Source: a virus. From it: a stretch of DNA of 37,070 nt. The notes beneath the pieces were generated by a model, which was given only the letters and a program-made list of their open reading frames with translations, did not search any database and was not told the DNA's origin. Each line of letters opens with the position of its first letter. Position 1 is the first letter of the stretch. The stretch covers positions 1 through 37,070 of the IMG/VR virus record IMGVR_UViG_3300017744_000044; one strand, given 5' to 3'. Below are positions 1,972 through 16,466 of this stretch, one piece after another. Both the position numbers and the translations under genes were made by a program.

Positions 1972-2409
1972 ATGGCGAAAAGTTATAAAGGGTTATATAA
2001 ACCAACCAACCCAAAGAAATATGTTGGTAATGCAAATCAAATAGTGTACAGGTCGTTATTAGAGAGACGGTTTATGCGTTATTGTGACCTGAATGATGAT
2101 ATATTAAATTGGGCAAGTGAAGAATTACCTATATCATATTTCTCACCTATCGACAAAAGATGGCATAGATACTTTCCAGACTTCATCATCAAGACATCAA
2201 ACAATAAGAGGTTTGTCATAGAGATTAAACCTTATCGACAATGTTTGAAACCAAAAGCACCTAAAAGAAAAACTAAATCACATATTCGTGAACAGTTTGA
2301 GTATATCAAGAACCAAGCAAAATGGTCAGCCGCAAGAAAGTATTGTGAAGACCAAGCTTCAGATGTTGAGTTTAAGATTATTACAGAAAAAGAATTAGGT
2401 CAGTATTAA
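1972..2409 (+). CDS. 4: Head completion protein gp4
   Basis: This 145-aa protein matches gp4 in length and layout: N-terminal YKGLYKPTNPKKYVGN, then VYRSLLERRFMRYCDLN, the strand HRYFPDFIIK, VIEIKPYRQC and the C-terminal IITEKELG. The D/EIK pattern with an upstream ERRF resembles a nuclease-like fold. T4 gp4 is needed to complete DNA-filled heads for tail joining. The start at 1972 was chosen over an upstream in-frame start because ATAGGAAC precedes it and homology begins there. It is the only plus-strand gene in the window, and its stop interlocks with that of the tape-measure gene. Confidence 0.85.
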   Translation: MAKSYKGLYKPTNPKKYVGNANQIVYRSLLERRFMRYCDLNDDILNWASEELPISYFSPIDKRWHRYFPDFIIKTSNNKRFVIEIKPYRQCLKPKAPKRKTKSHIREQFEYIKNQAKWSAARKYCEDQASDVEFKIITEKELGQY

Positions 2410-4247
2410 CCGAAGAAAGAATAGGCCGCTCTATCGTGGTAACTATCAATATCAGTTCTCAAATCAGTAGTTGTTAAACTAGCCGCTGAATTACTTGTTG
2501 AATTATTACCTGAATTGTTTGTAGAGTTGTCAATAATAACAACACCATCTCCTTGACCTTTTTTACCAAATCTATTTACAGTTTCAGTTTTATAGGTTGT
2601 CTCTGTTGTATCACCTTGTACTGTTTCTATTGTACTCTTTGAAATGTTATCGCCCTCATTGGTAACTGAACCTGTATCTGTACCGGCTGCCATCACTTCA
2701 TTATATACTCTACTAAACGCCTCGCCTGGACTTTCACCACCTGGTAACATTGCACCAGCAGCCGCAAGACCACCTTTTGCCAATGCTTTCATCATTGTAC
2801 CTAATTTGAAAATATTATTTTTGAGACCTGCAAAATCAAAAGTAAATAGACCTTTAAACCAGTTCCATGCCGACATTACAGGACCGTCTTCGCCTAAAAA
2901 GAATTCTTTTAGTGAGAATGGTTTATCGGGGTCACCAAAATTAAATATGTCTTTCAAGAAGTTAATTGCTAAGTCAAGTGGTAATGATACTACACTAAAG
3001 AAGAAATCAGCTGCACTACCAACTACGCCTGTTAGACCTGACCATATTCTTTCTGTGTCTAGTGTGAATATACCCATTACAAAGTCAACAAGACCACCAA
3101 TAATGCCACTAAAACTTTCTGTGATACTGACACCAAAATCTGCAATGTATGTACCTAAATTTTCTAATCCAAGATATGATAATGCCATGCCAATTAAATC
3201 TGTTATCAATCGTACAAAACTACCAATGAAACCATCTACAATTGCAACAACGGATTCTCTGATACCATCTACAATAGAACCACTTTCACCATAACCATCC
3301 ATAAATCCTTTAACACCATCAAATACTCCTAATATTAATGTCAATGGTAAGAATAATTTACCAACAGTTCTACCAATTGCTTTGATTGGCGCAATGATTT
3401 TACTTAATGCACCACCAGCTTTACCTGCACCTGCCGGTCCTGAAGCACCGCCACCAAATAGTCCCATTATTGCGTTCTTAAACGGAGCAAATACGGCACC
3501 AACTGATTTGGCTGCCTCATCTATTGATGAAGTAATCTTCATAATACCTGGACTACTAAAGAAACTCTTAACTGGTTTTATTAAATTATCATCTAATAGA
3601 AGTTTTATACCAGCAAATGGAGCTTTTGGCAAGTGTTTTGCCTTGAAGTCATCAAATTTTGATAGAATAGGTCCTGATATAGAAGTCTTGAAACCATTTG
3701 TCAAGTTTGTACCAAATGCTTTTGTAGCAATTTTAAAATCATCTACAAGTTTGGCACCAAAACCTAATGTAGTAATAGTACCAATGCCTTTAGCAAAAGT
3801 AGCCATTCCTTTGATAGATTTTAATTGTTGTGGTAATCTTAATATATCTTCTATATTCATTGCCTTTGCAAAAGCGGCTAAGGCAAATATACCTGCAAGA
3901 GCAGGCATTTTGAAATCACCAGTCATCTCTGATTTACTAGGCATAGAGACAGTAGATTGACTAGCTACATCTCTTTTTTCTTTTCTTAATTCAGCAGCTT
4001 GACTTCGTTCTCTTGCTAATTGGTCTTTGTCAAACTGAAACATCTGTCGTAAGGTGTCCATGAAACCTTGCGTGTTTCTTTCGTTCTCTTTACCAATCGA
4101 CCTTAAATCTTCTAATATAGGAATAGAACCATTATCATTGGCTGCTACAGCACCTGCACCACCAGTTATCGCACTACCAACAGCCATTTGTGCTGATTGA
4201 ATACTTGCGACTAAACTACCTCTTGTTTTACCTGTGTTCTCTGCCAT
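2406..4247 (-). CDS. Tail tape-measure protein (gp29-like)
   Basis: The product is 613 aa, near the length of T4 gp29 (590 aa). Residues about 40-100 are a charged helical region. Hydrophobic segments follow near 115-130, and a long Gly/Ala-rich hydrophobic part spans about 285-430. The C-terminus has Thr/Asn/Ser-rich low complexity (NSTNNSGNNSTSNS). This layout is typical of tape-measure proteins, which set tail length and may enter the host envelope. The gene lies downstream of the chaperone pair as expected. The start overlaps the iscU stop as TAATG. Specific identity with gp29 is inferred from size and position. Confidence 0.6.
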   Translation of the reverse strand: MAENTGKTRGSLVASIQSAQMAVGSAITGGAGAVAANDNGSIPILEDLRSIGKENERNTQGFMDTLRQMFQFDKDQLARERSQAAELRKEKRDVASQSTVSMPSKSEMTGDFKMPALAGIFALAAFAKAMNIEDILRLPQQLKSIKGMATFAKGIGTITTLGFGAKLVDDFKIATKAFGTNLTNGFKTSISGPILSKFDDFKAKHLPKAPFAGIKLLLDDNLIKPVKSFFSSPGIMKITSSIDEAAKSVGAVFAPFKNAIMGLFGGGASGPAGAGKAGGALSKIIAPIKAIGRTVGKLFLPLTLILGVFDGVKGFMDGYGESGSIVDGIRESVVAIVDGFIGSFVRLITDLIGMALSYLGLENLGTYIADFGVSITESFSGIIGGLVDFVMGIFTLDTERIWSGLTGVVGSAADFFFSVVSLPLDLAINFLKDIFNFGDPDKPFSLKEFFLGEDGPVMSAWNWFKGLFTFDFAGLKNNIFKLGTMMKALAKGGLAAAGAMLPGGESPGEAFSRVYNEVMAAGTDTGSVTNEGDNISKSTIETVQGDTTETTYKTETVNRFGKKGQGDGVVIIDNSTNNSGNNSTSNSAASLTTTDLRTDIDSYHDRAAYSFFG

Positions 4248-13230: not shown

Positions 13231-13266
13231 TTATTAAGCTGCTAATGCAAAGTTATTATCGTTTGC
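13231..13266 (-). other. tmRNA proteolysis-tag reading frame
   Basis: The resume codon GCA (13266-13264) opens a ten-codon frame ANDNNFALAA closed by two TAA stops. The E. coli tag is ANDENYALAA. The bases before the resume codon (TAAAC) keep the A at -4, which is important for setting the frame in E. coli. The ALAA end is the usual ClpXP degradation signal. Confidence 0.93.
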
Positions 13267-13356
13267 GTTTAATTAGCATATAAGGTTGCCACCTATTAAT
13301 CTCTTACAAATTTCTCAACATCTGTCGAATCCTATATCAGCCCCATCATAAACACA

Positions 13357-13488
13357 CTATTTACAAAGGTCTTCATACTTTGTGGCATGTACTCTATGTT
13401 TAGACAAATCTCTACCAAGATAACCTGGTACATGTCCTTCTCTCTTTTTCAAGAAATTATTAAATACATTTTTAATCCACTTTAGCAT
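13357..13488 (-). CDS. 43-aa protein encoded inside the tmRNA intervening segment
   Basis: The ORF encodes a basic 43-aa protein: an amphipathic start MLKWIKNVFNNFLKKREG, then HVPGYLGRDLSKHRVHATK and YEDLCK. A good ribosome site (GAAGGA, 6 nt from the ATG) lies between the tmRNA acceptor end (13514) and the ATG at 13488. The stop is 12 nt before the tmRNA 5' end (13344). The whole gene therefore lies in the part that must be cut out to make two-piece tmRNA. I do not recognise the protein. Coding signals are good for its size. Confidence 0.7.
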   Translation of the reverse strand: MLKWIKNVFNNFLKKREGHVPGYLGRDLSKHRVHATKYEDLCK

Positions 13489-13513
13489 TTACTTTCCTTC
13501 TCTAATGTGTTTA

Positions 13514-13581
13514 TGGTGGAGCTGGAGGGAATTGCACCCTCGTCCAGTCTGTCTACCATATTTGTCGTCAACGACTAATTC
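13514..13581 (-). ncRNA. ssrA: tmRNA acceptor piece (3' part of permuted ssrA)
   Basis: The minus strand ends with CAGCTCCACCA at 13514, which pairs with the GGGGCTG start of the coding piece. Before it is a T arm with stem GAGGG/CCCTC and loop TGCAATT; the usual second T of the loop is G here. Further upstream is a GTCG-TTGA-CGAC hairpin. A 6-nt match (ACAAAT at 13565-13560 with ATTTGT at 13311-13306) could help join the two pieces. The 5' boundary is set at the end of the preceding gene and is approximate. Confidence 0.88.
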
Positions 13582-14715: not shown

Positions 14716-14744
14716 ATTATATACAGTCTTGCCTCATTTGGCAA
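14716..14744 (-). promoter_or_regulatory. Early promoter P3 (exonuclease)
   Basis: GC + TTGCCA (14744-14739), 17-nt spacer, TATAAT (14721-14716). The GC begins right after the TAA at 14750-14748 that closes the lysozyme readthrough frame. The leader to the exonuclease ATG is about 25 nt and contains AGGAG. Confidence 0.8.
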
Positions 14745-15266: not shown

Positions 15267-16466
15267 TTACCATTCCTTGGATTCTTTACTGTCAGACCAG
15301 TAATTATATCCAAATTGTTTATCAAAATCGTACCAATTTTGTGTAGTAAAAGTTTGGTACCATTTATTGTCTGACCTATCGAATAATGTGAGGTTATGCA
15401 TAACATTTTTTAAATCATCAAACCATTCATTATCTTTTAGAAATTGTGAAGACTTTTCTTTAGTCTCACGCCAAAATTGTGTATCGTGGTTACTACCACC
15501 ATGATAGATGTAATTTATAAACATCTCAATGTACTGTGCTTTTCTTATCAGATTACGATTACACTCTTCTAATGTCCATTTTGAATTGTTAGTAATCCAG
15601 TTTACAGTATATGTCATTAAATCATCATAAAAATAACCAGACATTGCCTCTAATGGTTCAAAGAATAATGCTCTGTTACCATTCTTGACAATTCTTCTTG
15701 TCATAAAATTCTTAGCATAGTAATTTTTAAATTCAAAAGTCCTATGGTCTTCAGCTAATTTAGACAAAGGCATTTTTAATAACTCTGCCATATTAACTAA
15801 CGCTTCTTCTTTTGATGTTATCTTGTCGTTAAACAAGTAACCATTACCTGTTCTTGTAGTTAATGGTATTGTAAACATCCATCCATCTTTGGTTGCTGTG
15901 TGACCAGTATATCCAAAATTATTTGGTGTAGGTTTTACATGGGCAATAGCAGAATTAACTGGTATGTGCGCCGTTGTATAATCCTCGTATGTTTCTGGCC
16001 ATCCTCTACAATCAACAACCATAGAATATTTATGGTTTCCGTCATCTGTGCTTACTTCGGCATGACTTTCATGTTCGACAATATCTTTAACTGTGGCATT
16101 TATGATAGTAAAACGGTCACCATGTACCTGTTTTAACCTACTAAAAGTCCATTCAGCCAAATAGAAATTGTTAAAATGTATTCCGTAAATAGGTGTGGGA
16201 AATCTACTGTATATATCATGTGGTCTCCAATCTTTGTATTTTACACCATACTTAACAGTAGCGTCTAAAAAATCACCATCTTTCCATAAACTAAATTTAG
16301 CCGATTTATATAATGCTTGTGGTATTGAAGCAGTTGTACTTTCACCTATACCTAAAATTGGTATACTAGGGTCATATATAACACTCACCTCTTCGTGTGT
16401 GTCACTTAATAATCTACATACTGAAATAACTCCGGCTGTACCAGAGCCTATCACACATACTGCCAT
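15267..16466 (-). CDS. Flavin-dependent halogenase (tryptophan-halogenase family)
   Basis: The product is 399 aa, shorter than bacterial tryptophan halogenases (about 520-540 aa). The N-terminal FAD-binding motif is VIGSGTAG (5-12). The likely catalytic Lys76 lies in KYGVKYKDW. The DGWMFTIPL motif (194-202) stands for WxWxIP, with Phe198 in place of the second Trp. EPLEAMSGY (270-278) holds the conserved Glu. The enzyme would use FADH2, oxygen and halide to halogenate a substrate. Cyanophages carry related enzymes, one of which is reported to iodinate. The substrate here is unknown. AAGGGA precedes the ATG. Confidence 0.85.
   Translation of the reverse strand: MAVCVIGSGTAGVISVCRLLSDTHEEVSVIYDPSIPILGIGESTTASIPQALYKSAKFSLWKDGDFLDATVKYGVKYKDWRPHDIYSRFPTPIYGIHFNNFYLAEWTFSRLKQVHGDRFTIINATVKDIVEHESHAEVSTDDGNHKYSMVVDCRGWPETYEDYTTAHIPVNSAIAHVKPTPNNFGYTGHTATKDGWMFTIPLTTRTGNGYLFNDKITSKEEALVNMAELLKMPLSKLAEDHRTFEFKNYYAKNFMTRRIVKNGNRALFFEPLEAMSGYFYDDLMTYTVNWITNNSKWTLEECNRNLIRKAQYIEMFINYIYHGGSNHDTQFWRETKEKSSQFLKDNEWFDDLKNVMHNLTLFDRSDNKWYQTFTTQNWYDFDKQFGYNYWSDSKESKEW

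Follow-up and report, generated by a model that had tools for sequence, protein, structure and literature searches.

The window, that is, the whole stretch of 37,070 bases forming this virus record, carries one permuted tmRNA on its minus strand, recognised by the model RF04321 (Table 1). The 3' acceptor/CCA part lies upstream of the 5' acceptor part, the 7-bp acceptor pairing is present, and the tag frame reads ANDNNFALAA, with hydrophobic residues at its end followed by a stop codon. Between the two parts is a spacer of the kind that, in permuted tmRNAs in general, is removed by tRNA-processing enzymes; it contains an ORF encoding MLKWIKNVFNNFLKKREGHVPGYLGRDLSKHRVHATKYEDLCK, preceded by the purine-rich, ribosome-site-like stretch GAAGGAAAGTAA. 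The permuted tmRNA with a 169-nt spacer and a 43-codon ORF, as proposed in a preliminary description of this sequence, is thereby confirmed, with a score of 92.8 bits despite which ARAGORN finds no tmRNA in the window. Further upstream, a promoter-like sequence lies just downstream of a site that is occupied by a free-standing gene in related phages (see below). It is a candidate source of a transcript comprising the nuclease, a secreted protein, and the pre-tmRNA; the region around it contains 9 promoter-like sites versus a shuffle mean of 8.8, and hence no excess. A few genes from the tmRNA, an ORF at 15267-16466 (minus strand) presumably resembles flavin-dependent tryptophan halogenase. A glutamine riboswitch has been reported after or at the tmRNA of the phage Melnitz (L390), according to the portion of the report covered here (PMC9004378); none was found over the Rfam cut-off in the window.

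Table 1. Features of the permuted tmRNA locus in the window, and free-standing homologs of its spacer ORF in related phages
Feature	Position	Strand	Basis
Permuted tmRNA (RF04321 tmRNA_permuted)	13576-13234	-	cmscan, 92.8 bits vs cut-off 47
First-transcribed tmRNA piece (tRNA-like 3' part): T arm, acceptor CAGCTCC, ACCA	13514..13576	-	RF04321 alignment, outer end approximate
T arm stretch	13524-13545	-	sequence
Acceptor + ACCA (CCA ends at 13514)	13514-13524	-	sequence
Spacer, 169 nt	13513-13345	-	
Spacer stem 5' arm TAAACACATTA, immediately 3' of CCA	13503..13513	-	minimum-energy fold
Ribosome-binding-site-like stretch GAAGGAAAGTAA before start codon	13489..13500	-	inferred, Shine-Dalgarno complementarity
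Spacer ORF, 43 aa + TAG	13357..13488	-	shuffles, free-standing homologs, synonymous excess
Spacer stem 3' arm TAGTGTGTTTA; its first three bases are the ORF stop codon	13349..13359	-	fold, covariation
TGAT + acceptor 5' strand GGGGCTG (strand begins at 13344)	13338..13348	-	sequence
Presumed RNase P cut	between T (13345) and G (13344)	-	inferred from tRNA-like structure
Second-transcribed tmRNA piece: acceptor 5' strand, mRNA-like part, tag	13234..13344	-	RF04321, sequence
Tag frame	13266-13234	-	
Promoter-like TTGCCA-N17-TATAAT	14716..14744	-	11/12 matches
Free-standing homolog in L081	L081:2101-2199		protein similarity
Free-standing homolog in L410	L410:1459-1557		protein similarity
Free-standing homolog in L411		-	protein similarity

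Judged from sequence comparison, the spacer ORF of the window is a real coding sequence, because free-standing homologs of it exist in related phages. These homologs were found by searching 50 chosen related records, five of which matched at E 1 or better (because only these 50 were searched, relatives beyond them may be missed), and are free genes in L081, L410, and L411 (sequence ..GDLSKHRLHSTKYEDLCK); the protein of L081 is MLKWLFNIFKITEHGDLSKHRLHSTKYEDLCK, that of L410 is a near-copy, and that of L411 is diverged. Comparison of the 18 C-terminal codons of the window ORF with those of L081 gave 5.5/9.8 synonymous versus 5.5/44.2 non-synonymous differences per site (Fisher p 0.005), and versus L411 saturation was reached at the synonymous but not at the non-synonymous sites (p 3e-7, for which 10 of 10.3 synonymous changes were used), the counts being rounded in both tests. 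Synonymous differences therefore clearly exceed non-synonymous ones per site, which is the codon-level conservation that the preliminary description had proposed to look for, and the window ORF has two attributes expected of a protein gene, namely homologs with a conserved frame and a synonymous excess per site. An ORF of equal coverage occurred in 0 of 300 dinucleotide shuffles of the window spacer with ATG starts, and with ATG, GTG, and TTG starts the p value for coverage was 0.017. The AT-rich sequence, the short ORF-less spacers of some relatives, and the non-coding nature of some long spacers might suggest that the spacer is structured and non-coding and that its ORF is open by chance. 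However, the existence of homologs of the same protein already contradicts this idea, and the synonymous excess per site, the shuffles, and the strand bias of spacer ORFs (see below) also argue against it, making it very improbable.

The window ORF is known only as identical copies and as the free homologs, which lack 11 of its internal residues, located in the middle of the protein. It is 100% identical in four other IMG/VR contigs, three of which share the entire tmRNA stretch while the fourth starts just before the ORF, and two scans of viral contigs with peptides of the ORF detected nothing beyond these four. A tblastn search against 50,697 phage records returned 10 matches at E 7-8, which were treated as chance, and there were 0 matches to PHROGs up to E 10 and 0 to Pfam families up to E 1. 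AlphaFold predicts one N-terminal helix for this family (pLDDT 60.4, a weak model).

In these relatives the free gene, two genes upstream of the tmRNA, is flanked by a lysozyme-type gene and a PD-(D/E)XK-type gene (neighbouring gene names were carried over from the annotation of Mosig or assigned by eye). Both the window and Mosig are empty at this junction, with similar sequence on either side; by eye, the window and L081 seem to have different types of lysozyme-type gene. Considering that the free gene is present in relatives and that the site is empty in the window, the window spacer holds a gene that its relatives keep two genes away. Spacers of the phages possessing the free gene are diverse: that of L072 (the contig of L410) has 29 nt and no ORF, that of L029 (the contig of L411) has 112 nt and a different ORF (..YICINNYS..), and that of L081 has 203 nt and carries the MEVI gene. 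Upstream of its tmRNA, L029 also has a MEII gene, which is MEVI-like by eye. Melnitz possesses a MEVI-like free gene directly upstream of its tmRNA and a different ORF (MFKW..) in a 142-nt spacer; this ORF was considered by eye as a distant relative of the window ORF and was rejected, as no BLASTP alignment was obtained. Mosig has a 44-nt spacer with no ORF, and its loop GAAGGAAATTAATG resembles the ribosome site of the window; this stretch might be a remnant of a spacer ORF since lost, although it is too short to count as evidence for one. Small genes occupy spacer or free places in different combinations among relatives. The preliminary description had held that relatives lacking the ORF, or showing frame-breaking changes in it, while the tmRNA is conserved would speak against a gene. 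Taken literally, the first of these is found in part, since Mosig (44 nt), L109 (43 nt), L113 (49 nt), and L072 (29 nt) have short spacers and do without a spacer ORF. The second is not what was seen, the pattern in L063, L081, L029, L410, and L411 being gene presence and absence rather than frame decay. An ORF at the same position, which it had suggested searching for, is partly similar in L063, where a 122-nt spacer ORF resembles that of the window only in its N-terminal 24 residues (46%, E 0.001), and belongs to other families in L081 and L029.

We then consider how widely ORFs occur in the spacers of viral permuted tmRNAs. Viral contigs were scanned with two patterns for long spacers with a terminal TGAT, one yielding 89 stretches with spacers of approximately 115-175 nt and the other 21 with spacers of 175-235 nt. 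Recognition of a tmRNA, for which a 7-bp acceptor together with a T arm was required, succeeded in 85 of 87 new loci from the first scan and 20 of 20 from the second; in 70 of these 85 and in all 20 (90 of 105 together), an ORF of 28 aa or more takes up at least 70% of the spacer. A scan without spacer-length selection (at least 120 loci) gave 62 recognised permuted tmRNAs, 5 of them with such an ORF, among which two (L193 and L218) are trusted, and a thyX-neighbour search (80 loci) gave 55 recognised tmRNAs, including 11 with such an ORF, three being copies of that of the window. In total, 168 distinct permuted tmRNAs and 159 distinct spacers were recognised among the collected loci, which were gathered by different routes and are not a census. 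By these measures the window case is not isolated, and spacer ORFs appear to recur among phages.

The 92 distinct spacers of at least 95 nt form 51 clusters (by hand tally, 42 viral and 9 from bacterial contigs); the clusters were made partly by ORF similarity with single linkage, which merged L174 with Melnitz L390 and MKPT/MQAT with the MVICSC group, and the counts are rough. By hand tally, 26 of the 42 viral clusters have a sense ORF that fills 70% or more of the spacer and 5 of 42 have an antisense one, and shuffles that keep base composition only predict about 6.3 viral clusters with such an ORF. Bacterial contigs were covered by one narrow pattern scan, not a census, which gave 10 long-spacer loci; the clusters of nine of them show no strand bias (ORFs of at least 70% coverage in 6 sense versus 5 antisense, hand tally). 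The tenth, L381 (NHBR02000136.1, MAG 'Muricauda sp. TMED12'), is a stretch binned into a bacterial MAG that looks by eye like a T4-like phage, and its spacer ORF clusters with that of L029.

Some long spacers (L150/L253, L272, L303, and L254) are non-coding by the measure used. Related spacers of 138-142 nt in L150, L168, L253, L263, and L319 are structured-looking and mostly non-coding, and could possibly contain other cargo or an RNA element. The spacers of L188, L191, L132, and L235, which are candidate tmRNAs, have no evident end stem and share a coding-like stretch (..YYTENEWSRLG..). When 18 loci were given to ARAGORN, a permuted tmRNA with tag was called in 9 of 11 ORF-bearing loci (L081, L390, L193, L241, L326, L250, L029, L238, and L285, the exceptions being L013 and L063) and in 5 of 7 ORF-less loci; the tmRNAs of L017 and L059 are also missed by this program.

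The spacer ORFs belong to many unrelated small families (MKYK, MDWI, MENL, VDNK, MEVI, and others), several of which are under purifying selection and three of which have free-standing homologs. MKYK, a protein of 50 aa, was found at 27 loci, 23 of which are in spacers of quite different permuted tmRNAs (17 flagged by script and six with GGGAGC-type acceptors read by eye, all six being found by RF04321 over its cut-off). It is free in L356 and L357, whose contigs have no tmRNA over cut-off, and in L355 and L362 it is located behind an apparent 3' tmRNA relic whose 5' counterpart is absent. In L355 (IMGVR_UViG_3300013014_000835, 2300-3700), an intact MKYK ORF comes after the apparently degenerate relic, and a second permuted tmRNA over cut-off, whose spacer measures about 90 nt by eye, lies about 650 nt further downstream, such that the MKYK ORF seems to outlive its tmRNA; no tmRNA over cut-off is present within the 28.5-kb contig of L362. 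Divergent MKYK pairs have dN of 0.25-0.40 versus dS of at least 2 or saturated, and the synonymous excess of one pair has p 2e-7. AlphaFold modelling of 13 sequences gave a confident beta-beta-alpha-beta fold (pLDDT 90.6), for which a fold search returned no match at E 0.001 or better; small phage proteins and the antitoxins ATfaRel2 and Dmd resemble it weakly, and these likenesses were disregarded.

Regarding the other families, VDNK, from five spacers, shows up to 6 synonymous and no non-synonymous changes (p 4e-5 for one pair), and MENL and MKPT/MQAT lean to synonymous change (one pair each, p 1.5e-4 and 3e-4, respectively). MELV likewise leans to synonymous change, with dN of 0.22 and dS of 0.60, but in a comparison that takes in codons of the tmRNA body. 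For MDWI the signal of selection falls short of significance (p 0.06), and the three MKLF spacers differ too little for an estimate. MEVI is a spacer gene in L081 and L333, and Melnitz has it as a free gene upstream of its tmRNA (59% identity, E 5e-20); MDWI is a spacer gene in L250, L322, and others and is free in Mosig as Mosig_00134. Among named phage records, no match was found for MKYK and none better than E 8 for MKLF. At E 0.001 there was no match to PHROGs for 11 spacer proteins (the best being 0.004, for MDWI) or to Pfam for 10 spacer proteins. Taken together, homologs, codon-level selection, and the many further spacer ORFs support the proposal in the preliminary description that a protein gene lies within the segment to be excised.

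The ends of the window spacer form an 11-nt inverted repeat, TAAACACATTA and TAGTGTGTTTA, not remarked on in the preliminary description, which continues the acceptor stem in the predicted minimum-energy fold (13503-13513 paired with 13349-13359, z -5.37). Among 123 spacers ending in TGA plus one base, the arms pair at 94.5% of positions, versus 68.0% when arms are swapped between spacers and 48-59% when they are slid, and the 97 different arm pairs include many compensatory types. The acceptor helix is thus prolonged by a stem of covarying spacer ends. Relative to this stem, three layouts of the ORF were observed: (i) it ends in the 3' arm or ahead of it (window, MKYK, and MDWI); (ii) it is closed by the TGA within the TGAT that immediately precedes the acceptor strand (MENL, VDNK, MKLF, and MEVI); or (iii) it continues past the presumed RNase P site to a stop codon within the tmRNA body (Melnitz, MELV, L245, L275, L264, and others). 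An excised spacer of layout (ii) would be a complete small message, and one of layout (iii) would have no stop codon. In some cases of layout (ii), such as L241, the 5' arm contains the ribosome site, and folding and initiation would then be expected to compete.

These features raise the question of whether translation of the spacer ORF is coupled to tmRNA maturation, with the stem sequestering or including the ribosome site and stop, ribosomes competing with processing enzymes, and the processing of run-through ORFs yielding a stop-less message that would be a substrate for the tmRNA to rescue and tag. Consistent with such coupling, one group of families uses the TGA before the acceptor as its stop, AAGGA-like ribosome sites can sit in the 5' arm (e.g. 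L241), and the ORF reads into the tmRNA body in 12 of 26 ORF-bearing viral clusters and most of a 13th (hand tally; the ORFs of L271, L298, and L311 among these 12 are doubtful) as well as in the cultured Melnitz; the homologs L249 and L264 differ in this respect. However, ORF ends look opportunistic, falling before, in, at the end of, or beyond the stem even within one family, and the proteins do not need a tmRNA, as the free-standing copies show. We therefore regard coupling as unlikely, and a stronger version, in which spacer genes and tmRNA maturation regulate each other and a run-through, stop-less spacer message is tagged by its own tmRNA and forms a self-limiting gene, as somewhat less likely still.

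Instead, it is highly probable, on the comparisons made here, that the spacer carries a real small protein gene and that the phage tmRNA spacer is a permissive slot for small genes. The pre-tmRNA would be a single transcript; the precursor of a two-piece tmRNA is described as split in two in the portion of the Melnitz report covered here (PMC9004378). tRNA-processing enzymes would excise the spacer as the two tmRNA pieces mature, so that the spacer gene would ride on the precursor transcript and be absent from the mature RNA. Because the spacer is expected to be cut out, a gene there would cost the mature RNA nothing. The end stem could hold the acceptor strands together across the longer loop, allowing the tRNA-like domain still to fold and be processed, and the precursor, the excised spacer, or both might be translated into the protein. 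Different phages keep different small genes in the slot, some of which are also found as ordinary free genes nearby; the direction in which genes moved between the two places, and what the proteins do, we can only infer.

It is also conceivable that spacer genes are selfish passengers, i.e., mobile elements, of homing type or another, with the tmRNA gene as their target, considering that unrelated genes occupy one exact site, that empty and filled sites coexist among relatives, and that tmRNA relics adjoin MKYK in L355 and L362. However, the proteins have only about 30-60 aa and lack matches at E 0.001 in PHROGs (11 scanned) or Pfam (10), they are by eye of membrane-like, coiled-coil-like, and small alpha/beta types, and their free copies sit among ordinary genes; moreover, PHROGs and Pfam revealed no nuclease domain of the kind that marks a homing-endonuclease intron in the window ORF. 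This explanation is thus improbable. An assembly or binning artefact might be suspected for metagenomic contigs, two of which (the related L005 and L006) end inside the spacer, but has a negligible chance of being correct: the ORF is identical in several contigs, and the same architecture recurs in the 90 of 105 long-spacer loci and in four records of Melnitz, which come from axenic cultures according to the portion of the report covered here (PMC9004378).

In the record of the cultured Melnitz, the spacer ORF is present without a CDS. Annotation can hide such genes, because the stretch is labelled as tmRNA (Melnitz) or because the tmRNA is missed (the window, with ARAGORN), and the spacer slot appears to have been overlooked in numerous phages known only from uncultured material and in one or more that have been cultured. 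The preliminary description had suspected a previously undescribed arrangement, and no description of protein genes in the intervening sequence of a permuted tmRNA was found in the open-licence literature searched. These findings indicate that a discarded part of a core RNA gene has repeatedly been used by phages for unrelated small protein genes, and raise the question of whether one transcript can act both as an mRNA and as the precursor of a ribosome-rescue RNA, and whether these uses would interfere with each other.

Compared with known systems, the window has the gene order, T arm, acceptor pairing, CCA, tag frame, and intervening sequence of the permuted tmRNAs of RF04321/RF01849, but its intervening sequence holds a conserved protein gene. 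A 2025 tmRNA database contains 11,946 permuted sequences, and the portion of its description covered here mentions one tRNA-Ala gene and one repetitive element in intervening sequences of the permuted form (PMC11915505). Mosig, a Pelagibacter phage recorded as Kyanoviridae, has its gene neighbourhood in common with the window but an ORF-less spacer, whereas the spacer ORF of Melnitz, a Methylophilales phage also recorded as Kyanoviridae, belongs to a family other than that of the window; the two-piece tmRNA of Melnitz was described without mention of an internal ORF in the portion of the report covered here (PMC9004378). Group I introns with homing endonuclease genes in tmRNA, such genes being reported for 36 of 883 intron-type tmRNAs in the portion of the database paper covered here (PMC11915505), likewise nest a protein gene in a removed segment. 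However, the spacer genes have no intron or detected similarity to homing endonucleases, their proteins are smaller and diverse, and their site is a different one, between the CCA and the 5' end.
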